Assembly: GCA_007117865.1 (NCBI GenBank)
Contig: SKFT01000018.1
Coordinates: forward strand, 1 to 61,340
From: Puniceicoccaceae bacterium
Lineage (GTDB): Bacteria; Verrucomicrobiota; Verrucomicrobiia; Opitutales; Coraliomargaritaceae
Direction of reading: 5' to 3'
DNA length: 61,340 nucleotides
Shown here piece by piece: positions 6,966-33,700 of the stretch; within the stretch, counting starts at the first letter, position 1; each line of letters starts with the position of its first letter. The translations under genes were made by a program, and so were the position numbers. The notes under the pieces are model-generated. The model was not told the origin of the DNA, made no database searches, and saw only the letters and a program-made list of their open reading frames with translations.

Positions 6966-7793
6966 TCAGGTGCCGGGATTCAGTTTCGCTGGTATGCCAT
7001 TGGCAAGGAAGATTTCCCATGCGCGCAATACGTCTGCGTCATCCGCGGGTCGGGTATTTGCCAGTTGGTAGTCCAGTCCAAGGGCTGTATATTTGCTTTT
7101 GCCATATTGGTGAAAAGGCAGGATTTCGACCCGCTGACAATTGTCAAGTTCTCTGATAATGCGCGCGGTCGCGGCTAGGTTGTCTTTGGTATCGGTCAAT
7201 CCCGGAACCAAAACGAAACGTATCCAAAATGGTTTTTGCATTTGCTGCAAGCGTTTGGCAAAGCGCAAAATCGGATCCATGGCTACGCCTGTAACGGATA
7301 GATGCGTGTTCGCCAAACCACTTTTGATATCCAACAAAACCAGATCGGTCGCATCCAGCAATGCGTCGTCGGCCTTGTCTCCAAGGAAGCCGGAGGTATC
7401 CAGCGCGGTGTGGAGTTGGCTTTGTTTCGCTTTTTCCAGAATCGCGCGGGTAAAAGCTGCTTGCATCAACGGCTCGCCGCCGCTGACAGTGATACCGCCA
7501 CCTTTGCGAATGAAATTGCGATAGCGCAGGGCATCCATGACAACACTGCCGGCAGTCCGCTTGCTGCCTTTGGGCCGTCCCTGGGTGTCGGGATTGTGGC
7601 AATATTGGCAGCGCAGGAGACAACCGGATAGAAAAACCACGTAGCGCAGTCCTGGACCATCGACCGAGCCGCAGGTCTCCACCGAGTGAATGAATCCCTC
7701 GGTGGAGCTGGCAGCAAAGGTGGTCTCAGCTATCGGCAAGTCCACGTCCCATGGACATGCCGACAGGGGTTCCGTAGTGGTGTTTAGCGACAT
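6966..7793 (-). CDS. pflA: Pyruvate formate-lyase activating enzyme (radical SAM)
   Basis: 275 residues with the radical-SAM cluster motif C58-x3-C62-x2-C65 in [15 protein letters not shown], then ISGGEP-type motif (VSGGEPLMQ) and the DTSGF strand. It installs the glycyl radical on PflB using SAM and a [4Fe-4S] cluster. The N-terminus is about 30 residues longer than E. coli PflA. Its ATG lies inside the last codons of pflB (10-base overlap), so the two are translationally coupled. Confidence 0.94.
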
Positions 7794-10066
7794 TCGTGGA
7801 ACGTGCGATCTATCACGTCTTTTTGCTGCTCGCGTGTGAGCTTGACGAAATTGACGGCGTAGCCCGACACACGCAGGGTCAGCTGCGGATACTTCTCAGG
7901 GTGATCCATTGCATCGAGCAGCGTTTCGCGGTCAAAGACATTGACGTTGATATGGTGACCCTTTTCAGCGAAGTAACCATCCAGTAAAAGGGTCAGGTTG
8001 TTGATCCTTTCCTGGTTGGTTCGCCCGAGAGCCTTGGGCACAATTGAAAAAGTGTAGGAAATGCCATCCTGACTGTCGGCATAGTCCAGTCGCGCAACAG
8101 AACTCATCGATGCCAGTGCGCCCTTGCGATCGCGACCATGCATCGGATTTGCTCCGGGCGCGAAGGGTTCGCCGAGCTTGCGTCCACAGGGCGTGGAGCC
8201 GGTTTTTTGTCCATAAACCACGTTTGATGTGATGGTCAGGACTGACTGCGTTGGCACGGCATCGCGATAAGCGGGCTGTGCACGCAATTTTTTCATAAAA
8301 GTGTGCACCAGCTGACGGGCAATGGTATCGACCGATTCCTCGTTGTTGCCAAAAGCCGGATAATGGCCTTCGACTTCGTAGTCAACCGCCAGCCCTGCCT
8401 CGTTGCGGATCACGCGCACTCGACTGTGCTTGACTGCTGAGAGCGAGTCTGCCGTCACCGACAAGCCGGCAATCCCACAGGCAAGCGTGCGCAGGATTTT
8501 GCGGTCATGCAGGGCCATCATGATGTGCTCCGGGCAATAGCGATCATGCATGTAGTGAATGATGTTAAGCGCCTTGACATAGGTGGCCGCCAGCCAGTCC
8601 AGCATTTTGTCGAAGCGCTTGGTAAGGTCGTCATACTCCAGGTATTCGCCGCCAAAGGCCGCTGAGGGTGGGGCAACTTGTTCGCCGCTGATTTCGTCGA
8701 TGCCGCCATTGATGGCATAAAGCAAGGCCTTGGCCATGTTGGCACGGGCACCGAAAAACTGCATTTGCTTGCCGATACGCATGGCTGATACGCAGCAGGC
8801 GATACCGTAGTCGTCACCCCAATACGGACGCATAAGGTCATCGTTTTCATACTGTATCGCGCTGGTCTCAATCGAGACCTCAGCGCAGAAGCGTTTGAAT
8901 GGCTCAGGTAGGTTTTGCGACCACAGTACAGTCAGGTTTGGCTCCGGTGCCGGGCCAAGATTGTAGAGGGTGTGCAGTACGCGAAAACTGGTGCGGGTGA
9001 CCAACGGGCGACCATCCTCGCCAACACCACCGATGCTTTCCGTGACCCAGGTGGGGTCCCCGGAGAACAGTGCATCGTAGTCGGGTGTGCGAATGAAGCG
9101 CACGATGCGCATTTTCATCACCAGGTGGTCTATCAGCTCCTGTGCGCGCTCTTCGGTGAGAGTGCCTTCTTCAATATCACGTTGAATATAGATGTCAAAA
9201 AAGGTTGAGGTGCGTCCAAACGACATAGCCGCGCCATTTTGGTCTTTGACTGCCCCGAGATAGCCAAAATAGGTCCATTGAATGGCTTCGCGGGCATTTT
9301 TGGCCGGACCGGAAATATCAAAACCATAGGCTTTAGCCATGCGTTTGAGTGCTTGCAGGGCGCGGATTTGGTCATTCATTTCCTCGCGTTCGCGGACCCA
9401 GTTTTCGCTGAACGACTCACAATCACTGTCTGCCAGATCTTGCTCGCGCCCTTCAATCAGGCGGTCCACGCCATAGAGGGCCACACGCCGGTAGTCGCCA
9501 ATGATGCGCCCGCGGCCATAGCCATCGGGTAAGCCAGTCACAATCCCGTTGCTGCGGGCAGCGCGAATATCAGGAGTATAGGCATCAAAGACGCCATTGT
9601 TGTGGGTCTTGCGGTGCTTGGCAAAAATATCAGCAGTGGCCGGGTCCATTTCGCGGCCGTGGGCTTCCAATGCTTTTTGCGCAATGCGCACGCCACCGTA
9701 GGGTAACATGCCGCGCTTCAGTGGCGCCTCTGTTTGCAAACCCACGATTTGCTCCAGCTCCTTGCGGATGTAGCCCGCACCGTGGGAATCCACTGAGCTG
9801 ACAATTTTAGTATCCGCGTCCAATACACCCCCGGCGGCAATTTCCTTGCCAAGGAGATCCTTCAAGATCGCCCATAAGGCCTCTGTGCGCGTGGTTGGAC
9901 CCTGTAAAAAGGAATCGTCGCCGGCATAGGGTTCAAAATTGCGCTGGATGAAATCGCGTGTGTCGATGGCGTTTTGCCAATCGCCACCGCGAAATCCGCG
10001 CCATGCGTGTTCGGCGCCTTCCGGTGTCTGTGTTTGAGTGGATGCGATTGCCTCTGCTGTGTTCAT
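7784..10066 (-). CDS. pflB: Formate C-acetyltransferase (pyruvate formate-lyase)
   Basis: 760 residues, matching catabolic PflB length. The adjacent catalytic cysteines are C424-C425 in [10 protein letters not shown] and the glycyl-radical site is G735 in RVSGYAVNF near the C-terminus. The enzyme converts pyruvate and CoA to acetyl-CoA and formate under anoxic conditions. First gene of pflB-pflA-OFA. The ~285-base upstream region, shared with the divergent LolD gene, is AT-rich and carries repeated TTGATTAG octamers that may be regulatory. Together the operon implies a fermentative or facultative anaerobic lifestyle. Confidence 0.96.
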
Positions 10067-16540: not shown

Positions 16541-16647
16541 TTAATCCCAACCCGCGTAGCCGGCACCAAAAGGTGAAACCGCGCCGCCGGGATGAATGGC
16601 GAATGGCGATTTCGATTTGCTACGCCAGCTCCGCCGGGTTGGGTTAA
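16541..16647. repeat. Imperfect ~105-bp palindromic element at the 3' end of the kinase operon
   Basis: TTAATCCCAACCCG at the left end (16541-16554) pairs with CGGGTTGGGTTAA at the right end (16635-16647). Just inside, CGTAG on the left pairs with CTACG on the right. The interior holds two short AAAGGTG motifs. The right arm contains the stop codon of the receiver-kinase gene. It may be a transcription terminator/processing structure or a REP/MITE-like insertion. No second copy was noticed in this window. Confidence 0.45.
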
Positions 16648-17774
16648 TGAGAATCCAACTCGGCAGTAACTTCCAGTGTGAAAACACTACCCTTACCAGG
16701 TTGACTGTTGACGGTTAGGGTTCCGCCTATGCGTTCGGCCACGGTTTTGCATAAAGAGAGTCCCAGGCCCAGTCCCTGATGACGGCGACTCAAGGAGGAG
16801 TCCGCTAGAGTAAAGGGATCAAAAATAGCTCCGCTTTCAATCAGATCAGCACGAATGCCAGGACCGGTATCGGCTATGCAGAAACTGAGTAAAACGGAGT
16901 GGAGACCCTTAAAGCGGAAGCTGACCGTGACCCGCACCTGACCACATTCGGTAAATTTGAGGGCATTGTAGAGCAGTTTTTGCAGAATGATGCGGATTTC
17001 GTTTTTGGCAGCAATGACGAACTCAGGCAAATTATCAGGCAATTCGGTAATCAATTCGACGCTCTGCGGTGAATCCACCTTGCCAATGAGGTTGAGAATC
17101 AATGTAGCCGGGTTGAACGGTGACAGGTGGGGTTGTATGTCGCTCATGCTGATTTTGGCAAAAGTCAGGATGTCCTGGACGCGCTCAAAATTGGCCAAAC
17201 TGCATTCGCGTATCGTAGCCAGATATTCCTGTTGTTCCGGATTCAGGGAACTATCTTCGAGTAGCTCAATAAAGCCAAGGATGCCGTTCATTGGGGTGTT
17301 CAGCTCATGGCTGATGATTTCCAGGAAATTGTGCTTGGCGGCATTCAAATCCTTGCGCACGAGCACTTCTTGGCGAGAGTGAAATAAGTATTGCTGGTGG
17401 CAGCGTTCGACCACCGATTGGATGTGGTCGAGATCAAACGGTTTTTTGAGGTATTCCGATGCCCCCAGACTAATTGCCTGACGAGCGGTTTCCAAGGTTT
17501 CAAAAGCAGTCAGAATGATTACTTCTGTTGTTGGGTTGATACGCTTTACTTCGCGCAAGACGTCGATCCCATTCATCCCGCGCATGCGAATGTCTGTAAT
17601 GACAATGGCGCAGGGCGATTCGCGGAAGCGCTCGACCGCTTCTTCGCCGGAGGCAGCAGTTGTTACCGAAAATTGATCCTTGAAAATCATCTCCAGCGAA
17701 AGTCTGGGGCCGGGTTCGTCATCGACAACTAGCAGGCGATTGTCGATGGCTGGTTGTTTAAGGTTGGCTGTCAT
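16644..17774 (-). CDS. Response regulator-histidine kinase (REC-HisKA-HATPase), PhcR-like architecture
   Basis: 376 residues with no membrane segment. An N-terminal receiver domain (residues ~12-125: VVDDEPGPR, phospho-Asp in VITDIRMRGMNG, switch Thr in ILTAFET, Lys in KKPFD) is followed by HisKA with the phospho-His in ISHELNTPMNGILGF, and a HATPase domain with N-box LLYNALKFT and G-boxes DTGPGI and GLGLGLSL. A receiver feeding a histidine-kinase output domain is the arrangement of Ralstonia PhcR. It is the last gene of the minus-strand operon that begins with the LuxD-methyltransferase fusion, 61 bases after the previous gene. Confidence 0.9.
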   Translation of the reverse strand: MTANLKQPAIDNRLLVVDDEPGPRLSLEMIFKDQFSVTTAASGEEAVERFRESPCAIVITDIRMRGMNGIDVLREVKRINPTTEVIILTAFETLETARQAISLGASEYLKKPFDLDHIQSVVERCHQQYLFHSRQEVLVRKDLNAAKHNFLEIISHELNTPMNGILGFIELLEDSSLNPEQQEYLATIRECSLANFERVQDILTFAKISMSDIQPHLSPFNPATLILNLIGKVDSPQSVELITELPDNLPEFVIAAKNEIRIILQKLLYNALKFTECGQVRVTVSFRFKGLHSVLLSFCIADTGPGIRADLIESGAIFDPFTLADSSLSRRHQGLGLGLSLCKTVAERIGGTLTVNSQPGKGSVFTLEVTAELDSH

Positions 17775-17835
17775 GATTCTGACTTGGGTTAAGTGTGCAC
17801 GATAGGGATGTTTACCCGTTCGTCAAAGACATAGA

Positions 17836-19272
17836 TTAGGTGGCAAATGCCAATTGTTGATCCACTTTCGCCAATAGCACAGGGGCATCAAAAGGCTTAC
17901 ACAGAAGCGGAGCGTCAGGCAGGTTTTGCAGTAGGCCGGTCAGCATCGGCGGCTGGCGGGTGCTGAGGTAAAAGAGTTGAAAAAGGTCTCCATTTTGGGT
18001 CAGACCCTTATCCAGCACGGGTTGCAGGACCTTGGCCTCTATGGTGTCGAGGTCTATGAAAGCGCCATCCCATCGTTTGGATGCAAGTGCCTGACATAAG
18101 CGGTCGAGATCATGAAAGCGGTGCAATTGGAGTCGCTCGCACAAGAGCATGTTGAGTGCATCAAAAGCTGGTTGATAAGGTTCCAGCACAGCAAATTCCG
18201 CCAACAGTGCCCTGGTTTTGGGGCGCAATTGAGCTTGGCATTTTTCAACAAAGGATTTGCCATCTGCAGCAGCCAACTCACCGGTTGCGATGCGACTAGT
18301 CAGCGGAAGCGATAAAGTGTTGCTAGTGCGCAATAAAGTTCTCAGTTCGCGCTGATTCATCTCTTCCACCAGACAGGCAGCGGTATAGGCATCGACAGCC
18401 GCAACCTGAATTTTTCTTTGTGGTGAACTGGTCAACGCCGTCTGCAGTTGGCGAATTGCGTGCCCCGGCGCACCTTCAATTTGGAGCATGGCAAAGCTGG
18501 CGGGGCTCTCTATGCAGAGGCCGCGGTAATAGGCGCGTTCCAATTGCTGTTCCAATTGCTGACGCTCCTGACTCAGGTCGTAAATGAGATAAACAGCGAC
18601 CTGCCCACTTGCCTCGGTAGTCAGCAATCCGCGTTTGACGAATAGCAACTGGGCATCGATTTCCAGATGGCCTTCACCGGTGGTCGCAGTGGTCTGGCGC
18701 AATGCCTCAAGTTCCGGCACATGCTTAACCGAAATCGCCGGTTGCGGTTGCTTCAATAAGCGCCATGCCAGGGAGTTACCCATTAGCACGTTTCCATCGG
18801 CCTCCAGGCCAATCACCCCAAGTGGCAATTGATCGATGAGGAATTGCAAAATATCGGCCCGTTTGCGATGGTTGGCATTGTGCCGGGCACAGGTCAGAAG
18901 CGTTGAAATGAAGTTGGCGAGCGATCCCAGCAAGTGAAGGTCACCGGCTGAAAAGGGCTCCAGGGTATGCTTGCCATCCGATTTGAGGAATTGCCCGCTG
19001 GCATTTGTCCGCCCCAGCGGGATCATGACTTTCTCCATTTCAAATAGCTGCTCAGCCGACTCGATACGCAGTGGATCATGCTTATCCCGCAGTTGGCTTT
19101 CGACCACATCCAGTTGAAAGATAGGATCATTTGCCACCGCAGTGCTGAGCGCGGAGCTGAATTTTCCGAAATCGCTGAAGGCACTTAGGACCTTGGCGAA
19201 ACGTTGGTAGGCATCGGTCAGTCCCTCCACTGTAATGGCTGACGGGGTTTTTTCTTGGATGATATCAATCAT
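17836..19272 (-). CDS. GAF-PAS signalling protein with C-terminal receiver-like domain
   Basis: 478 residues, soluble. Residues ~10-130 look like a GAF-type sensor; residues ~145-230 like a PAS domain (LIDQLPLGVIGLEADGNVL); a heptad-rich linker (ERQQLEQQLERAYYRG) leads to a middle region of unknown fold. The last ~120 residues resemble a divergent receiver: DGAFIDLDT at the phospho-Asp position, YLSTRQ at the switch position and LLCKPFD with the conserved Lys. No kinase or DNA-binding output is visible, so it may be a scaffold or phosphate sink. Its ATG overlaps the sensor-kinase stop by 4 bases. Confidence 0.7.
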   Translation of the reverse strand: MIDIIQEKTPSAITVEGLTDAYQRFAKVLSAFSDFGKFSSALSTAVANDPIFQLDVVESQLRDKHDPLRIESAEQLFEMEKVMIPLGRTNASGQFLKSDGKHTLEPFSAGDLHLLGSLANFISTLLTCARHNANHRKRADILQFLIDQLPLGVIGLEADGNVLMGNSLAWRLLKQPQPAISVKHVPELEALRQTTATTGEGHLEIDAQLLFVKRGLLTTEASGQVAVYLIYDLSQERQQLEQQLERAYYRGLCIESPASFAMLQIEGAPGHAIRQLQTALTSSPQRKIQVAAVDAYTAACLVEEMNQRELRTLLRTSNTLSLPLTSRIATGELAAADGKSFVEKCQAQLRPKTRALLAEFAVLEPYQPAFDALNMLLCERLQLHRFHDLDRLCQALASKRWDGAFIDLDTIEAKVLQPVLDKGLTQNGDLFQLFYLSTRQPPMLTGLLQNLPDAPLLCKPFDAPVLLAKVDQQLAFAT

Positions 19273-21419
19273 AGTTTAGGATCAAAAGCGATTGGCAAAA
19301 TCAAGGTGAAAAAGGTGCCTGCTGCTGGCGTTGAGTGAACCGAAATGCGGCCACTGTGCTGCTCTATAATCTTTTTGACTATCGCCAATCCGAGTCCAGT
19401 GCCAGCCGAAGCCTCGCGCAAACCGGTGTCTCTGGAGGTGACAAAAGGATCGAAAATACTCTGCATAAAACCATTGTCCATGCCCATGCCGTTGTCGGCA
19501 ATGCGTATTTCCACCGCTTCCAGTTGGTAGGAATTCAGACCTTTTACGGGGGCACATGTGATGGTGATACGGCCCGTTTCGGGGCGGCCATCCCACTCGC
19601 TGATGGCGTGCATGGCATTCTCCAACAAGTTGCGAAGGACTTGTAGCAGCTGATCAAAATTTCCCTTGATCAAGGGTGCCTGCGGATCGCAGTTAACGCT
19701 TAGAACAATATTATGTTGTATCAGTTCGGAACTGAAGAGTGCCTGCGCTTCGTTTAGCAATGATTCAGGATCCACAGGAGCGAGGGAAGGGGGCGAGTTC
19801 TGTGCGAAAGCAGCCACACTTTCGACAATAGCACTGATCCTCTGAATGTCGCGGCTGACGATTTTGCCAAAGTCCTTGTTCAGAGAGAGTGATGAAGGGG
19901 ATCTGTCCAGCAGGCCCGCCAGCGTGCGCACGGAAACCAGGGGATTGCGCAGTTCATGGGAGAGGCCTGCTGCCATTGTTCCGATGGAAACCAGCTTCTC
20001 CATGCGGTTGGTGGTGCGTTCGAGTTCTGCCGCTTTCAGCATTAGGCAGATGCGCGAAGCCAGATTGTCCAGCAGCAAGAAGTCCAATTGACCACAAGAA
20101 GCCAGGTTTTTGCTGGAGCCAATAATGATAAAACCATAAACCGCTTCAGCGGTTAGGATGGGCTGGATCAAGTCATTGGATTGGATATTAATCCCATCGG
20201 CATTCAATTGCTTCAGGGTTTTTCGCGAGGTCCAGTTTTCTGTGACAAGATTATCTTCCAAGGCGATGGCAAAGCGGTGCTTTGCCAGCAGTTTTGTCAA
20301 CGGCGCCACCTTGATCAGTGAGATATCTGCCGGCATGTCGCGATTGCCGTATTGCGACAGCCGTTGATAGCCTTCACCCAATTCGTTGCGCGCGTAGATG
20401 GATACATGACCAGCCGCCAGTATGTCGTGTAGTTGTGCTGTGATTTCTTCCAGTGGATGACTGGTATTGGGTGCAATCACGACGTTGTTGACGAGTTCAC
20501 TGAGTGCTTTGCGGAATTGAATTTTTTCCGGCATGAACTGTGATTGCAGCAAACGGTTAATCCACCTGGAAAAAGTGGGGGCAACAAGAATCAACAGACC
20601 CGAATGAAGGGTGAAAAACAAAAACAGGGGTAGACGATGCATTGACAAATCAATCGCTTCGGCGCGATTCATAACAAGTATCACAAAGGCGCCAAAACCA
20701 AGACCGAGGATCAGTGAAGCAAGGATAATACCGCTGATACGGATGGCCATTTCATTGAAATCAAGTAAGCGGTATTTAATTACGGAATAGCCGATCCCCA
20801 GGATATAAAAAACGCTCAATCCGTGTCCAATCGGTGGCATCGGAATCCCCATCCACATGGGGAAGTTGGTCCCGCCGCCAAGGAATCCGATAGCGGTGCC
20901 GATAATCAGATACTTATTTTGGTTTTTGATTTTCGCCGATGCGTTCAGGTATTGTTGGATCAATAGGAAGAAACAGTAACAGACAACAATCGCAAAGCCA
21001 CCGAAGTAAACCGGAAAAATGGGGCCCTGTATTGGCCAGTAGGGGAAGGTTAACTGGGCCTCGACCCCGATAAAGACAAGGTCATACATCCCCGCCAGTG
21101 AAACCAGCGAGGCGACCACATAGCCGCAGGGTAGTAGTAAGCGGTGTGCCTTGCCAGTTACCTCACTGACAAAGTGTAGGTAGGTGTAGGGGATGAATGC
21201 CGAGCTCACCACCAGCCAGCGCAACCAAAAAATGGCTTCCGCTTCGGTGGTCGCCAGTTGCCACATCAAGTGGGTAAACGACCAACTGCCGACGCTAAGT
21301 GCGAACAGGCAAAAGGTGCGATTGCGTCCAAGCCTTGCTCCCTTCAGCAACACAGCAATGATAAAGAAACCCGTAATCAGGGTAACCGCAAAGGAGCTGA
21401 CAACCAGATACCAATTCAT
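19269..21419 (-). CDS. Multi-TM GAF sensor histidine kinase
   Basis: 716 residues. The N-terminal ~270 residues hold about eight hydrophobic segments (LVVSSFAVTLITGFFIIAV onward), resembling the multi-TM sensor region of kinases such as PrsK or 7TM-type kinases. Next come a GAF-like domain (~300-455), HisKA with phospho-His in LSHELRNPLVSVRTL and HATPase with LLENAMHAI, DNGMGMD and GTGLGLAI. A membrane-embedded input domain without a large periplasmic loop fits a lipophilic ligand, as proposed for PhcS. It is coupled by ATGA on both sides: to the LuxD-methyltransferase gene upstream and the GAF-PAS gene downstream. Confidence 0.88.
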   Translation of the reverse strand: MNWYLVVSSFAVTLITGFFIIAVLLKGARLGRNRTFCLFALSVGSWSFTHLMWQLATTEAEAIFWLRWLVVSSAFIPYTYLHFVSEVTGKAHRLLLPCGYVVASLVSLAGMYDLVFIGVEAQLTFPYWPIQGPIFPVYFGGFAIVVCYCFFLLIQQYLNASAKIKNQNKYLIIGTAIGFLGGGTNFPMWMGIPMPPIGHGLSVFYILGIGYSVIKYRLLDFNEMAIRISGIILASLILGLGFGAFVILVMNRAEAIDLSMHRLPLFLFFTLHSGLLILVAPTFSRWINRLLQSQFMPEKIQFRKALSELVNNVVIAPNTSHPLEEITAQLHDILAAGHVSIYARNELGEGYQRLSQYGNRDMPADISLIKVAPLTKLLAKHRFAIALEDNLVTENWTSRKTLKQLNADGINIQSNDLIQPILTAEAVYGFIIIGSSKNLASCGQLDFLLLDNLASRICLMLKAAELERTTNRMEKLVSIGTMAAGLSHELRNPLVSVRTLAGLLDRSPSSLSLNKDFGKIVSRDIQRISAIVESVAAFAQNSPPSLAPVDPESLLNEAQALFSSELIQHNIVLSVNCDPQAPLIKGNFDQLLQVLRNLLENAMHAISEWDGRPETGRITITCAPVKGLNSYQLEAVEIRIADNGMGMDNGFMQSIFDPFVTSRDTGLREASAGTGLGLAIVKKIIEQHSGRISVHSTPAAGTFFTLILPIAFDPKL

Positions 21420-23110
21420 TTGAGAGCAAACACCAGATTTGCCTGATCACCAAAGGAGCGATAGACCTTAGGCTCCCTGAAACCAGCGGCAATTGCGACC
21501 TCCATCAACTCATGCTTTTCATAGAATTTATATATGCCCTCCTCCTCCTTGAGCTTGATGGCCCCTGCAGCACTCAGCAGGTCGCGGGCCGACTGCAATG
21601 TTTGCTCGCCGCGGGCCTCCTCGACAACATCCTTGTAGATAACCGACAGATCGCAGTAGGGTTTCATGCTGGAGACGATCATTTTGCCCCCCGGTTTGAG
21701 GATGCGAAACAGTTCATCCATTAAATAATCCGGCTGTTTAAGGTAGGATATGAGCAGGCTGCAGCAGATGCGGTCAACGGCATCGTCTTCGAATGGCAAG
21801 CGTTTAGCCGCGCCCCTGGGCGCATCGATAGCGTCGAGATCGAAGCGATAGTATAGGCGGTTTAACGGAATCTCGTCGAGACTGACGGAGTTGTGACGTT
21901 TTACGGCATCACCCAAGCCCTTGGCGGTCAGGTCGAGTCCAAAATACAAGGGTGGTGAATCGCCGAAGTCGGCTTGTCGCTGCAGCAGATCGCGCAGGCA
22001 CCAGGCACCAAACAGGCCATTACCGCAACCGCAGTCAAAATAGATGTGATCACTTTCAACCGGTCCCAGGCAGCGACCAATCAGATCCAAATATTCCTGA
22101 TAATCGCCCACTGACTCCAGGATGTTATATTTATCCAGATACGCCTTCCAGAAGGTTTGCTCATCCTCGCGCTCCGGTGCGGCATTTCTCAAACGATCGC
22201 GCTCCAGACGATTTTGTTGGAAAAGCCGTGCCTTGCAGGGTTGGCGGATGCTGTCTTTGCGGCCAGTTAATTTTTTGAGTGGCGACTTCGCCCGTATTGC
22301 GTGAATGAGTTGGTCGACGGCAAACTTAGCCGCCTCAGGACTTTCGCGCAATTCATGCATGGCACCGGGAATGTTGATGTGGTGGACGCAATCGCCTGCC
22401 GCCATCAGCCGCTCGACCTGCTCGGTGGTGACCCATACATCGCGCTCGGCACTCAATAGATAAACCGGACAGCGGACTTTGCGGATGTCGGCAATGGAAC
22501 CCTCCAGCGTATGTAAATCATGGCGAATGCAATCCTGCAAAAAAGCATCGACATCAACCTGATGGCCCAAGATATCGGAGATGCCCTGCATCTGTCCGGC
22601 CAGGTATTCGGCCACCATGTCGCGTTGGTAAACCTCCCTGGCAGTGTGTTGGAAGTCAATCACGCCGACCAGCGTCGCCAAGCGCTCGATGCGCCGGTCG
22701 ACAGCTGCGACGCGCAATGCACAGCGTGCCGACAGGCTGTTGGCAACCAGTCGGATGCGCGTTACGGAGTGCGTCTTTTCCAGGTAGTCGACTGCGGCAA
22801 TGATATCCTCAATCGCGCTGGAAAAAGTGTATTGCTCAATATTGCCATCGCTTTCGCCGACATGATTGCTGTGATCGAATCTCAGCACCCGCATGCCGTT
22901 GGCGGCCAATTGGTAGCTCAGTTGCAGATTATTCTTCTTGGATTCGCCAAACTTGGGACAAATGACCACATAGGGCGCATCGTCCGGCACCGCCTCGCAG
23001 GTATCCATCACACCAACGATGCGCTTGCCGGCACGGGAATGAAAAATCACGATCTGGCTATCGACAGGGACGGATTCAGTTTTGTCGGCTGACAGTGTAG
23101 CTGAAGGCAT
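21416..23110 (-). CDS. LuxD-type acyltransferase/thioesterase fused to SAM methyltransferase
   Basis: 564 residues in two parts. Residues ~20-275 are an alpha/beta hydrolase strongly like LuxD, the myristoyl-ACP thioesterase of bacterial bioluminescence: RFDHSNHVGESDGNIEQYTF matches the LuxD block RYDSLHHVGLSSG, and ANSLSAR matches its nucleophile site. By recalled alignment the triad is S125, D224 (AERDVW) and H252 (AMHEL). Residues ~310-564 are a class I methyltransferase with motif I DCGCGNGLFG (359-368) and LFRILKPGGKMIVSS. The combination suggests release of a fatty acid from ACP followed by methylation, giving a fatty-acid methyl ester. First gene of a four-gene operon of signalling proteins, divergent from a kinase-FadL pair. 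The product is inferred, not shown. Confidence 0.85.
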   Translation of the reverse strand: MPSATLSADKTESVPVDSQIVIFHSRAGKRIVGVMDTCEAVPDDAPYVVICPKFGESKKNNLQLSYQLAANGMRVLRFDHSNHVGESDGNIEQYTFSSAIEDIIAAVDYLEKTHSVTRIRLVANSLSARCALRVAAVDRRIERLATLVGVIDFQHTAREVYQRDMVAEYLAGQMQGISDILGHQVDVDAFLQDCIRHDLHTLEGSIADIRKVRCPVYLLSAERDVWVTTEQVERLMAAGDCVHHINIPGAMHELRESPEAAKFAVDQLIHAIRAKSPLKKLTGRKDSIRQPCKARLFQQNRLERDRLRNAAPEREDEQTFWKAYLDKYNILESVGDYQEYLDLIGRCLGPVESDHIYFDCGCGNGLFGAWCLRDLLQRQADFGDSPPLYFGLDLTAKGLGDAVKRHNSVSLDEIPLNRLYYRFDLDAIDAPRGAAKRLPFEDDAVDRICCSLLISYLKQPDYLMDELFRILKPGGKMIVSSMKPYCDLSVIYKDVVEEARGEQTLQSARDLLSAAGAIKLKEEEGIYKFYEKHELMEVAIAAGFREPKVYRSFGDQANLVFALK

Positions 23111-23195
23111 GTTGGAGCTATAAAATTAATTGATATGTAAAAGACAATTAAAAAGAACATTGCATAGTTTGGAATGTTTAATTTTCTTTTCTCCA
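23111..23195. promoter_or_regulatory. Divergent promoter region of the candidate acyl-signal locus
   Basis: Only 19 bases separate the LuxD-methyltransferase start from the TTG at 23130, or 85 bases if the opposite kinase starts at GTG 23196. The segment is AT-rich (ATTAATTGATATG and nearby) and must hold both promoters unless they lie inside coding sequence. No specific operator recognised. Confidence 0.35.
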
Positions 23196-25187
23196 GTGAG
23201 TTTAATCCTTCTCATCAGCCAACCAACTTCGATACCCAAAGCATTGGAGTACCTATTGTCTGAACTGCAATGTACCTGGGTCTATCGCAATGACCCCAGA
23301 TCCGTTGCTTCAGCTGTCAGTCGCGGCGCCTTTGAGCACGCGGTATTCTATTTGGCCAAAGGCGATGAACCGCAGTTGGAGGCGATTACTTTTTTGCGCG
23401 AGAGTTGCCGCGATTTGGTCATCTACGTGATTGCCGCTGACAACTGTCAACAGGCCTCGGAGCGGGTAATTCAAAGCGGTGCCGATCTGTATCTCGCAGA
23501 ACCCGTTTCCGAACGATTATTGCATCGCTTGCTGCATTTACCAACGACAACGGTCAAGCCACTGCCGGAGAGCGCAATTGCCGCACCGCAAATGAATGAT
23601 TTTCCCGCCAATGTCCGGCCACCCTCCGAGTTGCAAATTCTGCGTGATTTTTCGCGTATCCTTGGCTTTAGTTTGGATTACCAGGCATTCAGTGGTCACT
23701 TTATTCTCAAGCTGCGTGAATTCATCAGTTTTAGCCGCATTGCGCTTTTTCTTCTGGAACCCTCGGCCCAACCTATAATCAAGAAAACAAACAACGCGCG
23801 CCTGCATTGTATTGCCTCACTTGGGATCCCTGCTGACCTAATTAACTGTTTTCAGCTCAATCGTGAAAGTGGTTTGGGTAAAGCGGTATTTGCCCAACCG
23901 CGCATCCTGCACATTCAATCCCCCGGGCTGGATCCAGCCGCGAGGAAGGAATTGGCGATTTTGGATTGTCAGATTGCGGTGCCCATCAGTGATCGTGAGC
24001 GGGTGATAGGCGTTGCGGTATTGAACGGATCCGTTACTGGAAGGGACTACAGCGACGATGAGCTTCAATTGCTGTATTTGTTGATGGAAGAGCTGGGGCT
24101 TGCCATTCGCAACTGCTGGTTGCACATGGAGCTCAAGCGTCATGGTCAACTCGTTGGCAACGTTCTCGGCGCGATTAGCAGTGGCGCTCTGGTTGTGGAT
24201 GACGCGCTCAACATTCTCTACGCCAATCCGGCGGTTTACCGCTTCCTAAGCAAGATCGAGCGCGCGCATGTGAAAATCCCCTTTGCCGAATTACCCTCCC
24301 GCCTGGCAAGCCGCTTGCACCGTGCCATTGAGAAAGGGGAACGCATCGAACCCTTCTTTATGCCGGGTGTGGATGAGCAATCATTGTACCGGGTAGCGAT
24401 TTTCCCATTTAATGATAGCTATGACTCTAGCAGCGGGGCTGGCGCTGTTATGGTCGTTTTGGAGGACTACACCAAGATTGAAGCCGTCAAGCAAACGGCT
24501 TTGCAGAACTCGCGCGAGGGAATTATCCGGACCATTGCCGAGCGCTTTGCCCACGAAATTCGCAATTCACTGGTGCCGCTGACCACCCACGCGCAGTTGT
24601 TGGATAGCCGCATGGGCGAAGCCGATTTCCAGCAATCCCTTAAACATGCCTTGATGAGCGAGTGCGGACGCATCAAGCGCTTCAGTGAACAAATGCTTTA
24701 CTTGGCGAGTGAGTCCATCGCTTTGGACAGCTCCATTGAGATCGTCGCCATTTTACAACAAAGCTTTGAGCGTGCGCAGGTCTTTTGTAAGATGCCGGCA
24801 AAAATGCATTTTCACGAGCCTTTGCCGGCATGTAAAGTGTATGGCAACAAGCAGGCCCTGCAAGAAGCCTTCGAGGAGCTCTTCATCAACGCGCTGCAGG
24901 AGGGGATGGATGAGCCAGTCGTCGATTTGGCACTGGCACCGGATCCCGATTCCAGCATGCTAAAGGTCAGCATTCGCGACAACGGTTGCGGTTTTGCCGC
25001 CGAGAAACTGCAGCAGGTGATGGAGCCATTCTTTACCACCCGCAATACCGGTGTGGGCTTGGGACTTTCAGTGGCACAGCGGATCATTCGTGCGCACCAT
25101 GGGTCTTTGTGCCTGGCATCCAGGCAAGACGGTGCCGAATGGGATATACAAATCGAACTGCCGCTTTGCCGCATAACTCCATCATGA
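23130..25187 (+). CDS. Soluble histidine kinase: pseudo-receiver, GAF, PAS, HisKA, HATPase
   Basis: 685 residues from TTG 23130; GTG 23196 (663 residues) is an equally plausible start because it begins exactly at the first strand of the receiver-like domain (LILLISQ). That domain (to ~135) lacks the acidic pocket and the phospho-Asp (the position reads FYLAKG), so it is a pseudo-receiver. A GAF domain (~165-330) and PAS domain (~340-440, NVLGAISSGALVVDDALNI) follow, then HisKA with FAHEIRNSLVPL and HATPase with FINALQEG, DNGCGF and GVGLGLSV. No membrane segment. Divergent from the LuxD-methyltransferase operon; its TGA overlaps the FadL ATG. Confidence 0.85.
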   Translation: MICKRQLKRTLHSLECLIFFSPVSLILLISQPTSIPKALEYLLSELQCTWVYRNDPRSVASAVSRGAFEHAVFYLAKGDEPQLEAITFLRESCRDLVIYVIAADNCQQASERVIQSGADLYLAEPVSERLLHRLLHLPTTTVKPLPESAIAAPQMNDFPANVRPPSELQILRDFSRILGFSLDYQAFSGHFILKLREFISFSRIALFLLEPSAQPIIKKTNNARLHCIASLGIPADLINCFQLNRESGLGKAVFAQPRILHIQSPGLDPAARKELAILDCQIAVPISDRERVIGVAVLNGSVTGRDYSDDELQLLYLLMEELGLAIRNCWLHMELKRHGQLVGNVLGAISSGALVVDDALNILYANPAVYRFLSKIERAHVKIPFAELPSRLASRLHRAIEKGERIEPFFMPGVDEQSLYRVAIFPFNDSYDSSSGAGAVMVVLEDYTKIEAVKQTALQNSREGIIRTIAERFAHEIRNSLVPLTTHAQLLDSRMGEADFQQSLKHALMSECGRIKRFSEQMLYLASESIALDSSIEIVAILQQSFERAQVFCKMPAKMHFHEPLPACKVYGNKQALQEAFEELFINALQEGMDEPVVDLALAPDPDSSMLKVSIRDNGCGFAAEKLQQVMEPFFTTRNTGVGLGLSVAQRIIRAHHGSLCLASRQDGAEWDIQIELPLCRITPS

Positions 25188-26377
25188 AACGAAAACAAAC
25201 CCAATCAAAATTCGCGTCAGCCTTGGTCTGCATTTTGTTGACCATCGCCGCACAATCCATTCATGCTGCGGCAACGCGCATTGCGTTTATCGATGCTTTT
25301 GCCACTGCCCGCGGCAACGCATTTGCCGCTACCGCCGACAACCCCTCGGCGATATTCTACAATAGTGCGGGATTGACCCAACTCGAGGGAACGACACTGC
25401 AGGCCAACGTCTTTGCCATCTCACTCGATTACGATTATAAGGGTGCCGGTGTGCGGGACCATTTGGACAATAGCTTTCAGCCCGTGCCATCATTGTTTCT
25501 GGCCCACCGATTTGAGGAGCGTCCCTTTGCCATCGGCTTTGGCGTCTACGCGCCGTTTGCGCTGGGAACCGACTGGGGAGCCAACGCCAGTTTTGCCGGC
25601 GCTGATCCATCAGTGCCCTATGAGGCGGATTTGTCTTATGTCAAATACCACGGTGTCGTCGCATGGCAAATAACCGACACTCTGTCGCTGTCCGCTGGCC
25701 TTAGCTACGACGCTGCTGATATCGATGTCAAGGCAACCGCTCTGCGCTACGATGGTAGTGACAATACCCTTGGATACTCCATGGCATTGCATTGGAAGCC
25801 CCATCTTAAGCATGCCTTTGGCTTAAACTACCAAGCAAGGACGAGTGTGCGCTTCAGCGGCACGGCAGAGGTGATGATAGCTCCCAATACCTACTTGCCA
25901 TTACCGGCATCAGCCAATCTGGTTTTTCCGGAATCGATCACCTTTGGCTATTCCTATCGTCCCAATGAGCATTGGAATTTTGAGTTCAACCTCGATTGGA
26001 CCAACTGGGATCGCGTCAATACCCTTACCCTGGACGGCGTTCCCGGTGCCAGCTACGATTTGAACTGGCAGTCGGCTTTTATTTGGGAGTTTGGTGCCAC
26101 CCGCTATCTTCGTGACGGTTGGCATGTGAGTGGCGGCTATACCTATGTGGAAAATGCCGTGCCCGACCGCGATTTTCTGCCGATCGTGCCCGATTCCAAC
26201 CGCCATTTTTTCGGCTTTGGAGTCGGACGCAGCTATGAGCATTGGCGCTGGCAGGCAACCTATCAATATGCCTACGCAAGTGACCGCGGAGTCAGTGGTA
26301 ATACGCGTCCGGCACTGGATGGTAAGTGGGGGTTGGACAGCCATGCGCTTAGCTTTTCTCTCGGTTATCGTTTTTGA
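25184..26377 (+). CDS. FadL/OMPP1/TodX-family outer-membrane protein
   Basis: 397 residues with a signal peptide (SALVCILLTIAAQSIHAAA). The mature N-terminus carries the family hatch pattern TADNPSAIFYNSAGLTQLEG, followed by alternating amphipathic strands and a C-terminal LGYRF aromatic end typical of outer-membrane barrels. FadL-type channels take up long-chain fatty acids or other hydrophobic molecules. Start fixed at ATG 25184, which overlaps the kinase stop (ATGA); the longer open frame lies inside the kinase. Coupling to a kinase next to a fatty-acid-releasing enzyme suggests uptake of a long-chain signal, which is inference. Confidence 0.88.
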   Translation: MKRKQTQSKFASALVCILLTIAAQSIHAAATRIAFIDAFATARGNAFAATADNPSAIFYNSAGLTQLEGTTLQANVFAISLDYDYKGAGVRDHLDNSFQPVPSLFLAHRFEERPFAIGFGVYAPFALGTDWGANASFAGADPSVPYEADLSYVKYHGVVAWQITDTLSLSAGLSYDAADIDVKATALRYDGSDNTLGYSMALHWKPHLKHAFGLNYQARTSVRFSGTAEVMIAPNTYLPLPASANLVFPESITFGYSYRPNEHWNFEFNLDWTNWDRVNTLTLDGVPGASYDLNWQSAFIWEFGATRYLRDGWHVSGGYTYVENAVPDRDFLPIVPDSNRHFFGFGVGRSYEHWRWQATYQYAYASDRGVSGNTRPALDGKWGLDSHALSFSLGYRF

Positions 26378-26457: not shown

Positions 26458-27090
26458 ATGAACATAGTGCGCTCAGCAACCAAGGTCTTTGCCAGTGACA
26501 AAGATCAGTCCACCAGCGGAATGGATGTGGACTTTGCCTTGGTTGAAAGGGTGCAAACGGGTGATGTGGCCGCTTTTGATGAATTGGTGCGCAAATACCG
26601 GACGCGTCTGTATTCGGTTATGTATAATTTGACTGGCAACCGCGAAGACGCCAGCGATTTAACTCAGGACGCCTTTATTAAAGCCTTTCAATCGATTGGG
26701 CGCTTTCGCGGCAAATCCGCTTTTTATACCTGGCTCTACCGCATTGCAGTCAACCATGCGCTGACTTTTATTAAAAAAAACCGCCGCCGGCGTTTTTTCA
26801 GCTTTGATAATATGACAGAAGAGGCGGGTGCGGATGAGATTTTTGAAGCGATTGCCTCGAAAACCCGCACGGAAAAAGCTGTTTTAATGGAAGAATTACA
26901 GGAACGATTGAACGAAAGTCTCCAAAAGTTGTCCGAAAAGCATAGAGCTGTTGTCGTTTTACACGAAATTGAAGGACTTAGCCATGCGGAGATCGCCGAA
27001 ATAACCGGTGCATCCATTGGCACCGTCCGCTCCCGATTGCATTACGCTAAAAACCAACTTCAAGCCGATCTACAACCTTACCTAAGCTAA
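26458..27090 (+). CDS. ECF-family RNA polymerase sigma factor
   Basis: 210 residues from ATG 26458; ATG 26521 would give a protein beginning MDVDFALVERVQ, which is closer to family starts. Sigma region 2 is LTQDAFIKAFQSIGRFRGKS with TWLYRIAVNHAL; region 4 is LSEKHRAVVVLHEIEGLSHAEIAEITGASIGTVRSRL. The sequence resembles the RpoE-like (envelope stress) group. It heads an array with a single-TM partner, an HtrA-like protein, a GH42-like protein and a hybrid kinase, which may be its regulators or targets. Confidence 0.92.
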   Translation: MNIVRSATKVFASDKDQSTSGMDVDFALVERVQTGDVAAFDELVRKYRTRLYSVMYNLTGNREDASDLTQDAFIKAFQSIGRFRGKSAFYTWLYRIAVNHALTFIKKNRRRRFFSFDNMTEEAGADEIFEAIASKTRTEKAVLMEELQERLNESLQKLSEKHRAVVVLHEIEGLSHAEIAEITGASIGTVRSRLHYAKNQLQADLQPYLS

Positions 27091-27107
27091 ACAATTACCA
27101 AATACAA

Positions 27108-27683
27108 ATGAAAGCAGATAAAAACTTTACCAAACCAGCAGTTAGCTTGGAACAATTGTTGCGCTTGAAACGAGCTGAAAAGCCTGAGGAGGTCTTTTGG
27201 GACCGTTTCGACAGGGAGTTGCACGGGCGCATGCTGCGAACCCTGGTCAACAGCGAAACAAAATCCATGGGTTGGTCGCGCTGGTTGCGCATGCGCTGGC
27301 TGCAGGCTGGTGCTGTGGCTGCTTGCGCGGTTTTACTCGCCCTGGTTGCTGTTGACCTGCGTACGCAGGAGCAAGCAGGAACAGTCAGTCCGTCAGCAGT
27401 GGCATTGCAACCGCAATTGCCGGATGTATCCCGGCAAACCGCTTCGCCGGCAGTGGCAGCCAGTGCGATTGCGGCAGAAGCTGAGGCAATGGTGGAGCGA
27501 ACTGATTTTGGTATCGGTCGAGTTGCGAGTGCCAAACCCCAATCGGAATTGTCCTTTAGTCGAGATTTTGGTGCCAACTCTGTGCGCGTCGCTGTGGCTA
27601 GCTCTATCGACAGCTACCGTATGGATTATGCCAGCGATAGTGTTTTTGGTTCGCAATCGGCTCGCGGACGCCTTGTTTACTGA
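27108..27683 (+). CDS. Single-pass membrane protein, probable anti-sigma partner
   Basis: 191 residues. A charged N-terminal cytoplasmic part of ~60 residues (SLEQLLRLKRAEKPEEVFWDRFDRE) precedes one membrane helix at ~65-83 (AGAVAACAVLLALVAVDL), and the rest is an Ala/Ser/Val-rich, probably periplasmic domain. Size, topology and position 17 bases after the ECF sigma gene are those of an anti-sigma factor. No zinc-binding HxxxCxxC motif is present, so it would be a non-zinc type. The role is inferred from context. Confidence 0.6.
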   Translation: MKADKNFTKPAVSLEQLLRLKRAEKPEEVFWDRFDRELHGRMLRTLVNSETKSMGWSRWLRMRWLQAGAVAACAVLLALVAVDLRTQEQAGTVSPSAVALQPQLPDVSRQTASPAVAASAIAAEAEAMVERTDFGIGRVASAKPQSELSFSRDFGANSVRVAVASSIDSYRMDYASDSVFGSQSARGRLVY

Positions 27684-27703
27684 GCGCTGGGGTCCATCGG
27701 GTC

Positions 27704-28792
27704 ATGTCTATGCCGCTATTTTGCAAACTGTGCCGCTTAAGTATCGTTGCCCTTCTGTTTTTCTCCGGTGCCACTCTCACTGTATCAGCCGCATCCCGCT
27801 TGCAGCAGCGGATGGTGGAGATTTACAACGAGACAGAACCGGCGATTGTTCGCGTTAAAGCGGCTTTTCGTGATACTTCGCGGTCCGATAATGAACGGGC
27901 GCATGTCACTCTGCGGGTCGGTACGGGTTTTTTCTACAATCGCGAGGGGCATGTCATCGTCAACGCCAGTCGTGCCTATGGTGCCGATCGCGTGTGGATT
28001 GAATACAAGGGGCAGGCTTATGCCGCCGAGCCGTTGGGACATGATCGGCTGACCAATATCTCTGTTTTACGCGTATTGGAGCCGCCGGATACGTTTGGCT
28101 TTATCTCCCTCGATCCAGGCGTTCCGCGTCCGGATATTGGCAGTCTGGTATTCACTGTGGCCCACTCGCTTGATTTCGATGCCTCGCCGGGCTTTGGTTT
28201 GATCACTGGTATTGAAAATCGCCTCGGGGTGCAAATTTTTCCTACCCATTACCTGCGTTCAACGATTTCCGTTGAGGTTGGTGAGGGGGGCTGTCCTTTG
28301 CTGGATATTAATGGGCGCCTGATTGGTATCACCGTTGCGTCAATTCCCGAGATTGGCTCCTCCTACGCCTTGCCCACCGATGCGCTCATTCGCGTTCGCG
28401 ATGACATTGTCAACTTTGGTGAGATGATTCACAGCTGGATGGGTTTCGAGGTGGGTGAGCGCGATGGCAGTCGTGATCAGTATCCGGTTTTCCTATCCAA
28501 AATTATCGCCGACACCCCGGCCTACGAAAGTGGACTGCGTGAGGGAGATACCCTGATCGCCATAGATGGGCGTAAGATTGGTGGTGTTGCCGATGTACCT
28601 GGTGCAGTCTTTTTTACCCGTTCCAATCAGAATGCAACGGTGCGCGTGGAGCGCGAGGGCGAGGTTTTGGAATTCAGCGTGCGCACTTTGCCCCGTCCCC
28701 AGCGTGATCCTTTATTATTGCCGCGCGGCGAGGAAGAAGGTGAGATCCCTGTTGGTGTGAGTCCGCAGGATATGGAGTTGCTGGTGGAATGA
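27704..28792 (+). CDS. HtrA/DegP-like protein lacking the catalytic triad, with PDZ domain
   Basis: 362 residues with a signal peptide (LSIVALLFFSGATLTVSAAS). The chymotrypsin-like domain is recognisable (VGTGFFYNREGHVIVNAS, then PLLDINGRLIGI) and is followed by one PDZ domain (residues ~235-330, IIADTPAYESGLREGDTLIAI with GRKIGG). Compared with DegP, the catalytic His site (TNNHV) reads VNASR, the Asp site (QSDIAL) reads LTNISV and the Ser site (GNSGGAL) reads GEGGCPL. All three triad residues are replaced, so it should be proteolytically inactive and perhaps acts as a periplasmic sensor or binding protein. Its TGA overlaps the next ATG. Confidence 0.82.
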   Translation: MSMPLFCKLCRLSIVALLFFSGATLTVSAASRLQQRMVEIYNETEPAIVRVKAAFRDTSRSDNERAHVTLRVGTGFFYNREGHVIVNASRAYGADRVWIEYKGQAYAAEPLGHDRLTNISVLRVLEPPDTFGFISLDPGVPRPDIGSLVFTVAHSLDFDASPGFGLITGIENRLGVQIFPTHYLRSTISVEVGEGGCPLLDINGRLIGITVASIPEIGSSYALPTDALIRVRDDIVNFGEMIHSWMGFEVGERDGSRDQYPVFLSKIIADTPAYESGLREGDTLIAIDGRKIGGVADVPGAVFFTRSNQNATVRVEREGEVLEFSVRTLPRPQRDPLLLPRGEEEGEIPVGVSPQDMELLVE

Positions 28793-30702: not shown

Positions 30703-33700
30703 ATGGCTGTTCCAATCAACGCCAAGCACACGGGATTTAGCCAAGCCAAGGCACGATGCTTTGTTCATTGCCTGATCCACCGGTTACTGGCACTTGCGTG
30801 TGGACTGCTTCTGGCGTCTTTGCCGCTGAACGCTGATACCGATTTGAGCCTTGACGCAAGCGAACCCATTACTGTCTCGCTCGATCATTCTTGGCCCCCT
30901 TTTTCTTTCGTTGATAAGAGCGGCATTCCGCAGGGTATTTTGGTGGATTTTTGGCACGAGGTTGGCCAGCGCAGCGGACGTTCGGTTCATTTCCAGATGG
31001 TTGATTGGCCGGATACCATTCAGCTATTACGGGACGGAGAGGTGGACTTTCATGGTGGACTTTTCCGCTCGCCCGAGCGCCTCGAGTTTATGGACTTTTC
31101 GTCGCAACTGCTGCCGCTCAGTGCCTTTGCTTTTGTCCGCCGTGAGTCGGGCTATATGCAACTGGAGGACCTTGAGGGGAGCAAGGTCGGGGTGACTCAG
31201 GGCAGTTATGAAGCCGAGGTGCTGGGTCGTAGCTACCCCGGGGCTATACAAGTGACATTTTCCAACAACGCTCAAATGGTACAGGCAGCCTCAGCGGGTA
31301 TGATTGACGCATTTATTGCGGATTTTCCTGTCGGCATGTATTTACTCAATGAATTTTCCAAACCGGAGGATTTTCATCCCTTGGCACCACTCTACTCAGA
31401 ATACCTCAGGATTGGCGTGCGTCAGGGAAGCAAGCTGCATTTGGCTTTTGCCAACAAAATGCTGGATACCTTCTCGGATCAGGAATTGCGACGATTTGCT
31501 ATGCGCTGGGTGGTGGTTGAGAGGGAGTCGATCGTGCCCTTTCAGTTTTATCTCTATGCGCTGTTGGTGTTATTGATCGCCGTAATGTTTGTCTATGTGC
31601 TTTTATTGCGCCGTCAAAAGTGGCTCATCGATAGTGAACGCGATAGTATCCAGGAGCGTCTGGATTTGCAAAGTGCGGCACTGGATGCAGCTGCCAATGG
31701 TATTGTGATTACCGATACCAATGGTTGTATCGAATGGGCCAATCCTGCTTTTGCCAAAATGACGGGTTACTCGCTCGACGAAGTAAAAGGCCATGAACCT
31801 GGTGAATTATTGCGCTCGGGTGAGCATGACCAGGCCTTTTACCGGAAAATGTGGGATAGCATTCTTCAGGGTAAAGTCTGGCATGGCGAAGTAACCAATC
31901 GCAGAAAAGACGGGACTCATTATGCCGAGGAGATGACAATTACGCCTATGCGCAATCGCGCAGGGGCGATTTGTAACTTTGTCGCCATCAAGCAGGATGT
32001 AACCCTGCGAAAAATCATTGAAGCACGCGTTGCAGAGGGGGAATCACGCTTGCGATCGGTGTTGAAGACACTGCCAGGAATTGTCTATCGGATACAATTA
32101 ACACCCGATGACCAATTTGTTTTTACCTTTATCAGCGAGGGCCTTGTTGCCATGACGGGCGTTACCGTCGGACAGGTCCTTGCCGATGCCAATAGGGTTT
32201 TTGATCGACTACACCCGGATGATCGGAACTGGGTCATGGTTGACAGCATTGACTACGCGCGTAAAGCGCTCCCGTGGAATGGACAGTTCCGGCTGTTGGA
32301 TAAGCACGACCATTGGGTATGGGTCGAGGCAAATGACATACCACAGCGGTTGCCCGATGGAAGCGTAATGATAACGGGCTATCTTAGCGACGTAACAGCC
32401 AAGAGAGAGTTGGCAGAACAGGTGAATCATCAGGCTTCCATGCAAAAGTTAATCGCTGATGTTTCGGCGCGCTTTGTCACCGCCAACATCCATACAATTG
32501 ATGGAACTATTCAATGGATGTTGGAAAAGTGCGGTCGATTCTTGCAGATGGACCGCGCCTATCTGATCCAATTGTCCAGCGACAGCGATTGCGGAATGAA
32601 TAGCCATGAGTGGTGCGCCGAGGGAATAACGCCGTCAGTTTACAGTGCCAGTCCAATGGTGCTCGACGAGCTTCCTTGGATGAAAAAGATGATTCAAAGA
32701 CGGATTTTTCTGAATATACCGGATGTGCAAGCACTGCCCCCAGCCGCAGAGGCCGAGAAGGCAGCATTCAGCGCACAGGGAATACAGTCATTTTTCGCCA
32801 TCCACCTGCAGGCCGACAATCAGCATTTCGGTTTTGTGTGTTTCGATTGTGTCAACAGCAAAGCCAAGTTGAAACCAGACGATCATGGATTGCTGTCAAT
32901 ATTGACGAATATTCTAAGCGATGCACTGAAGCAGAATCAATTCGAGCTGGAGCTGCTAACCGCCAAGCAGGAAGCTGAAAAGGCAAATGCCACCAAGAGT
33001 CAGTTTGTCGCCAATATGAGTCACGAAATCCGCACTCCTCTCAATGGCATCATAGGATTGGCGCGGTTGTTGGTTGATTCTCCGCTGAACGAGGAACAAA
33101 AATCCTTGATCAAGGCAATGCAGAGCAGCGGTGATATTCTGCTGGCCTTGATTAATGATATTTTGGATTTGACGAAAATCAGCGCTGGCAAGCTGGAGCT
33201 GGATGAACACCCTTTTGTGTTTAAGGATGTGGTTGATGATTTAATTACGGCTTTTGAGCTGCAGGCGCAGGACAAGCAGATTCGACTGACATACTCGATG
33301 GATGAAGTCTTGAATCGGCGCTTTCTCAGCGATGTAAACCGAATCAAGCAAATCCTCGTCAATTTAATCAGCAATGCGATAAAGTTTACCCCGCATGGCG
33401 GCAAGGTAAACGTTAGCTTCAATGGCACACTGCGGGAGGATGGTCGGATGGACTTACGCGTATTGGTAAAGGATACGGGTATCGGCATCGATCTCGCCAA
33501 TCAGTCGAAGCTCTTTGATGCCTTTCAGCAGGGTGATGCCTCGATTACCCGCCGATTCGGCGGGACTGGACTGGGCCTGGCCATTTGCAAAAGTCTGGTT
33601 GAGATCATGAACGGAAGCATCAAATTCCAAAGCCAAATCGGTATTGGTACGGAGTTTGTCGTTAACTTGCCTGTAACGGTTATGGGGGATGCAGGGGTTT

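Follow-up and report, generated by a model that had tools for sequence, protein, structure and literature searches.

Six neighbouring genes (positions 16644-26377) in the window, by which is meant the whole 61,340-nucleotide stretch of DNA from a Puniceicoccaceae bacterium that was analysed here, raise the question of whether a lipid synthase, several kinases and an outer-membrane channel together form a signalling system or serve the lipids of the cell that carries them. A preliminary description had proposed that a fatty-acid-derived signal is made, imported and sensed at this locus. In the present analysis a fatty-acid-derived signalling locus was the best-supported reading, and the genes are taken to encode a synthase, a receptor and a relay for a hydrophobic, fatty-acid-derived, O-methylated signal (probability about 0.6).

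Layout of the locus and identity of its proteins

The genes, designated B to G, were found exactly where the preliminary description had placed them (Table 1), as were its three ATGA overlaps, which join B to C, C to D and F to G. Two divergent coupled operons had also been described; the coupling stands at these three junctions but not for the REC-kinase gene E, which is separated from D by a 61-bp gap with no overlap. The gap between B and F is probably a shared promoter region, judging from the gene layout, and no regulatory motif common to the family was found in it by family comparison. Alignment of homologues gives GTG at 23196 as the most likely start of F; the ORF listing places this start further upstream, at TTG 23130. 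No transcription factor or output domain was found inside the module.

Table 1. Features of the candidate signalling locus, in coordinates of the window.
Feature	Coordinates	Strand	Basis
B: candidate signal synthase, fusion of LuxD-type domain and class I SAM methyltransferase	21416..23110	-	PF02273, Methyltransf_11
C: candidate receptor, multi-TM histidine kinase	19269..21419	-	HisKA_7TM, HisKA, HATPase_c
D: soluble GAF-PAS-(degenerate GGDEF-like)-pseudoreceiver protein	17836..19272	-	Domain matches of homologues, model
E: REC-HisKA-HATPase protein	16644..17774	-	Response_reg, HisKA, HATPase_c
F: soluble kinase with degenerate N-terminal receiver, GAF, PAS, HisKA and HATPase_c	23196..25187	+	Divergent from B
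G: FadL/TodX-type outer-membrane channel	25184..26377	+	PF03349
Divergent intergenic region between B and F (85 bp)	23111..23195	.	Gene layout

Elsewhere in the window, the same strand downstream of the FadL gene carries an ECF sigma factor, an unannotated gene and an HtrA/DegP-like PDZ protease (26458-28792), a neighbourhood that did not appear next to the module in the first set of relatives compared. Further along lie a very large hybrid kinase (30703-34572), the N-terminal region of which resembles a solute-binding protein by eye, and beside it a four-PAS SpoIIE-type phosphatase (34644-37046). A pyruvate-formate-lyase-like glycyl radical enzyme is encoded at 7784-10066.

Both halves of the fusion proposed for protein B were recovered: a LuxD-type acyl-ACP thioesterase/acyltransferase domain at approximately residues 20-262 and a methyltransferase domain at approximately residues 350-564. 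The first matched PF02273 at 97.1 bits (Pfam, cut-off 20.3), a match whose absence would have refuted the preliminary proposal; 35/35 homologues match the family too, and in all of them the catalytic triad S125/D224/H252 is invariant. The alignment with Vibrio harveyi LuxD covers residues 40-257 and takes in the catalytic His as well as two motifs, Asp-x-Trp-Val and that of the nucleophile. An AlphaFold2 model of B (pLDDT 86, pTM 0.85) gave as its best PDB match 1THT (Foldseek, E 4.9e-16, TM 0.83 by target), the structure of V. harveyi LuxD, a myristoyl-ACP thioesterase. By alignment and by model, then, the LuxD-type domain in the N-terminal half of B is genuine, with its catalytic residues intact. 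Against the LuxD equivalog NF052253 (NCBIfam) B scored 96.1 bits, the cut-off being 420, and it is therefore regarded as a distant relative of LuxD and not as LuxD itself; it shares the fold and triad of the V. harveyi enzyme but differs in its fusion to a methyltransferase and in the lack of a lux operon. No lux genes were found at the locus, with luxCDABE absent, and LuxC was missing from six of eight carriers and weak in the other two, so that bioluminescence, with B supplying aldehyde for luciferase, was rejected.

The methyltransferase domain matched Methyltransf_11 at 41.1 bits (Pfam) and was part of the LuxD fusion in every one of the 35 homologues, with the SAM-binding residues D359/G361/G363/G365 invariant throughout. 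Its best family matches are generic, with no close characterised relative, and the score against the fatty-acid O-methyltransferase Mtf2 was 20.8 bits (NCBIfam, cut-off 400). YnbC of E. coli has the same order of domains, an alpha/beta hydrolase followed by a methyltransferase, but sits with phospholipid genes and not with kinases; this phospholipid-type fusion was rejected as a relative of B, there being no detectable sequence similarity.

Scores above the respective cut-offs were obtained for the methyltransferase, HisKA_7TM, Response_reg and FadL. Protein C matched HisKA_7TM (PF16927) at 44.3 bits (Pfam, cut-off 28.6) together with HisKA and HATPase_c. Its kinase core is intact (H488, N597, N601 and D642 invariant, 29/29), and the hydropathy of its homologues points to 7-9 transmembrane segments. 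Divergence of the C membrane domain was correlated with that of B (partial Mantel correlation 0.54), a value whose difference from that of the C kinase domain was indistinguishable from zero by bootstrap and which is not counted as support here. Genome G018 also encodes a further C-like kinase with several TM segments and a fused receiver (L088:7920-10823), with no synthase gene recognised alongside.

Protein E matched Response_reg (93.6 bits), HisKA and HATPase_c and has no output or DNA-binding domain by Pfam. D61, T89, K111 and H156 are invariant (24/24), every receiver and kinase residue examined being kept, and from its sequence E is probably a phosphorelay hub of PhcR-like architecture. 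The receiver of E is kept across the order (at least 51% identity), and the kinase halves of the Puniceicoccaceae-type and Opitutaceae-type lineages are 18% identical, a drop suggestive of a replaced kinase domain. In protein F, H452 is invariant (26/26) and the kinase residues are kept; residues of the N-terminal receiver are not conserved.

Protein D, alone among the six, had no Pfam match of its own. Its description as a GAF-PAS receiver-like protein was borne out by its homologues, which matched GAF (17/25), Response_reg (17/25) and PAS (12/25). The AlphaFold2 model of D (pLDDT 80) matched the PAS-GGDEF structure 5xgb as well as receiver domains, the latter with TM 0.75-0.80 by target (Foldseek). 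No GGDEF motif is present (DANR or DAHR, e.g., stands at the aligned positions), and because the model matches PAS-GGDEF in spite of this loss, we infer for the third domain a degenerate cyclase fold. At the phospho-acceptor position of the receiver, Glu is found in 19/25 homologues and Asp in 6/25, among them the window protein, and K459-P460 is invariant. Protein G matched PF03349 at 132.1 bits (Pfam, cut-off 29.7).

Conservation and distribution of the module

Relatives of the fusion were sought in approximately 85,000 species genomes using short conserved peptides, a scan by which distant fusions would be missed; most of the genomes surveyed are metagenome assemblies. This yielded 36 fusion loci, or 37 with the window, all in Opitutia; outside Opitutia the same scan returned only one weak methyltransferase-only match, and no carriers outside the order were found in a 388-genome sample of the phylum. 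Gene presence at the loci was determined by HMM mapping in six frames, loci being counted as informative where the contig was long enough.

The neighbourhood, conservation of which had been put forward as a check on the signalling proposal, proved to be kept across the order: C adjoins B in 37/37 loci from many genera, and D is present in all 30 loci with enough contig. F is present in 30/34 informative loci, E in 25/29 and G in 20/30, and FadL is thus an accessory and not a defining part. Two loci (L049, L055) retain only B-C-D, and one (L050) is without F. In 373 Opitutales genomes B was found in 18, and C orthologues and D in the same 18 plus one further genome (G289). The association of the module genes is far above chance, given the invariable adjacency of B and C and the co-occurrence of the core genes in the same 18 of 373 genomes.

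The locus in G289 (L083:5579-9577) is receptor-only: C and D are intact, and B is reduced to a remnant of its last ~70 residues, next to rlmN. Two fusion loci (L057, L059) with B proteins 79% identical were observed in a single metagenome-assembled genome, QNAI01. Carriage by phages or plasmids was considered and was not supported; no relatives were found in viral contigs, and in plasmids the sole match was a LuxD gene on a single E. coli K-12 construct.

An alternative cassette beside the same probable relay protein

In four genomes that lack the fusion (G090, G311, G066 and G133), a FabF-type ketosynthase (KAS) gene lies beside a divergent C, and neither B nor D was detectable in any of them. 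An ICMT-type carboxyl methyltransferase accompanies the ketosynthase in G090, G311 and G066; in G133 the contig ends inside the KAS gene. The pairing of synthase and receptor in this type was seen at five loci in these four genomes. In G066 and G133 the distant C-like kinase is preceded by KAS with the genes overlapping, and in G066 the ICMT-type gene lies upstream as well. Genome G066 has two such ICMT-ketosynthase-kinase cassettes (L085:253-4270 and L097:3664-7878), one of them preceded by a FadL gene. The best structural relatives of the ICMT-type protein are carboxyl methyltransferases, and its NCBIfam matches include lipid A phosphate O-methyltransferase.

The gene order in G090 and G311 is ICMT - ketosynthase - C' - F - G - E, the cassette being joined to F-G-E (L096:7407-16010; L095, reverse). 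At both loci rmuC lies beyond E, and in G090 (L096) an ABC ATPase gene and surE lie on the opposite side; these genes, ABC ATPase/surE and rmuC, are also the flanks of many fusion-type Opitutaceae loci. In gene trees the E proteins of G090 and G311 fall within the clade of fusion-type E, with 82-85% identity to those of L047 and L044. C of the cassette type is 22-26% identical to C of the fusion type, the two forming separate clades (support 100/100); for G090 and G311 in comparison with fusion-type loci, the identities are ~23% for C, ~40% for F and 44-45% for G. Both types occur within one genus (g46), with the fusion in G359 and the ketosynthase in G090 and G311. Since C, F and G are divergent and E and rmuC are constant, synthase, receptor, F and G appear to have been exchanged as a block; the argument from E and rmuC is based on two loci (G090, G311), and that from both flanks on one (G090).

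In a chemical signalling system one would expect synthase and receptor to be exchanged together while the relay stays constant, and the substitution of FabF/ICMT for the fusion is stronger support for an O-methylated, fatty-acyl signal than any feature of the window by itself. Extending this to Opitutales as a whole, with lipid-signal systems that are exchangeable at one site and around one relay, two or more unrelated cassettes of synthase and receptor, LuxD-methyltransferase and FabF-ICMT among them, serving as distinct chemical dialects, and receptor-only listeners besides, is a proposal to which we give even odds.

Comparison with known systems, proposed pathway and alternatives

In the Phc quorum-sensing system of Ralstonia (PhcB/PhcS/PhcR/PhcQ) the signal is methyl 3-hydroxymyristate or -palmitate. 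As there, a methyltransferase gene is followed by genes for a sensor kinase and for a REC-kinase protein that lacks a DNA-binding domain, and the membrane sensor kinase (here C, with its ATGA overlap with B) is encoded beside the synthase. Grouping in Ralstonia follows signal type for PhcB and PhcS and strain phylogeny for PhcR and PhcQ (PMC8578825); variation of synthase and receptor around a constant REC-kinase protein is repeated here by C and E at larger distance. The two systems differ in that the methyltransferase here is fused to a LuxD-type domain, with no stand-alone PhcB-like synthase; in the addition of a GAF-PAS-pseudoreceiver protein, a second soluble kinase and often FadL; in the lack of a stand-alone receiver (PhcQ), D bearing only a degenerate one; and in phylum. 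Phc output runs through the LysR-type regulator PhcA; within the present block there is no LysR gene. The preliminary description had proposed a Phc-like system with added LuxD and FadL parts. Of this, the LuxD part and the way of working are retained; comparison by architecture indicates a likeness in operation and not membership of the Phc family, and FadL is missing from 10/30 loci. FadL takes up long-chain AHLs in Sinorhizobium (PMC9938287), and the present locus resembles that case in the pairing of FadL with a hydrophobic acyl signal but differs in signal class and receptor and in having FadL inside the signal locus.

The proposed pathway is as follows. The LuxD-type domain of B would take an acyl chain, probably of mid or long length, off acyl-ACP, and capping of the released carboxylate by the fused methyltransferase would yield a fatty-acid methyl ester or a close relative. 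The product would leave the cell, recross the outer membrane through FadL where FadL is present, and be sensed by the N-terminal membrane domain of C, thus acting between cells. C, with F and the adaptor D, would then set the phosphorylation of the E receiver, and E would pass this state to regulators elsewhere. Both enzyme sets would pair an acyl-ACP-handling enzyme with a methyltransferase, each tied to its own version of the receptor kinase. Because LuxD chemistry either frees the acid or transfers the acyl group, and because the best structural relatives of ICMT are carboxyl methyltransferases, the simplest common product would be a carboxyl methyl ester, of a fatty acid or of a 3-oxo or 3-hydroxy acid, or a similar O-methylated lipid. 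The claim of a fatty-acid-derived signal locus is strengthened by the PF02273 match, the conserved neighbourhood and the FabF/ICMT exchange; product, release, sensing and output are proposed. Against the claim count the generic relatives of the B methyltransferase, the loci that lack FadL or retain only B-C-D, and the lack of a transcription factor or output domain in the module.

The strongest competing explanation, which we consider unlikely, is private homeostasis of membrane lipids or fatty acids, with B trimming or methylating the envelope lipids of its own cell, the kinases monitoring membrane or fatty-acid status, and no signal passing between cells. FadL, a LuxD-type thioesterase and a membrane kinase would also fit fatty-acid uptake and turnover, the nearest NCBIfam kinases are of the AtoS/ZraS type, and no export gene was found inside the module; a housekeeping circuit, however, need not swap enzyme and receptor jointly while keeping E and the chromosomal site, nor need it be limited to 18/373 genomes. 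Less probable still is that the fusion and FabF/ICMT make some other O-methylated lipid (a methyl ketide, a methoxy-lipid or a methylated lipid head group) that is nevertheless the ligand of C: enzymes of the ICMT/PEMT superfamily methylate varied groups, and the generic relatives of the B methyltransferase fix no acceptor, but both the end point of LuxD chemistry and the carboxyl methyltransferases to which ICMT is structurally closest stand against it. That the enzyme genes lie beside two-component genes without a functional link is very improbable, for although two-component genes are common in these genomes, the 37/37 adjacency across many genera, the gene overlaps and the near-exact co-occurrence by genome are not those of a coincidental neighbourhood.

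No quorum-sensing system in these bacteria was found in the literature searched. The proposed family of exchangeable lipid-signal systems, if real, would be a class of quorum sensing for Verrucomicrobiota in which a thioesterase-methyltransferase fusion not described before acts as synthase, and the locus would carry signalling by fatty-acid methyl esters into another phylum. A compact candidate open to testing is available in the sequenced strain IMCC26134 (complete genome), and the chemical class of the signal is predicted. The most interesting new element, which goes beyond the preliminary description, is the exchangeable synthase-receptor cassette: two such cassettes, found at a single site beside an unchanged relay protein, constitute a natural swap experiment, and would show a bacterial group changing its signal without changing the downstream wiring.
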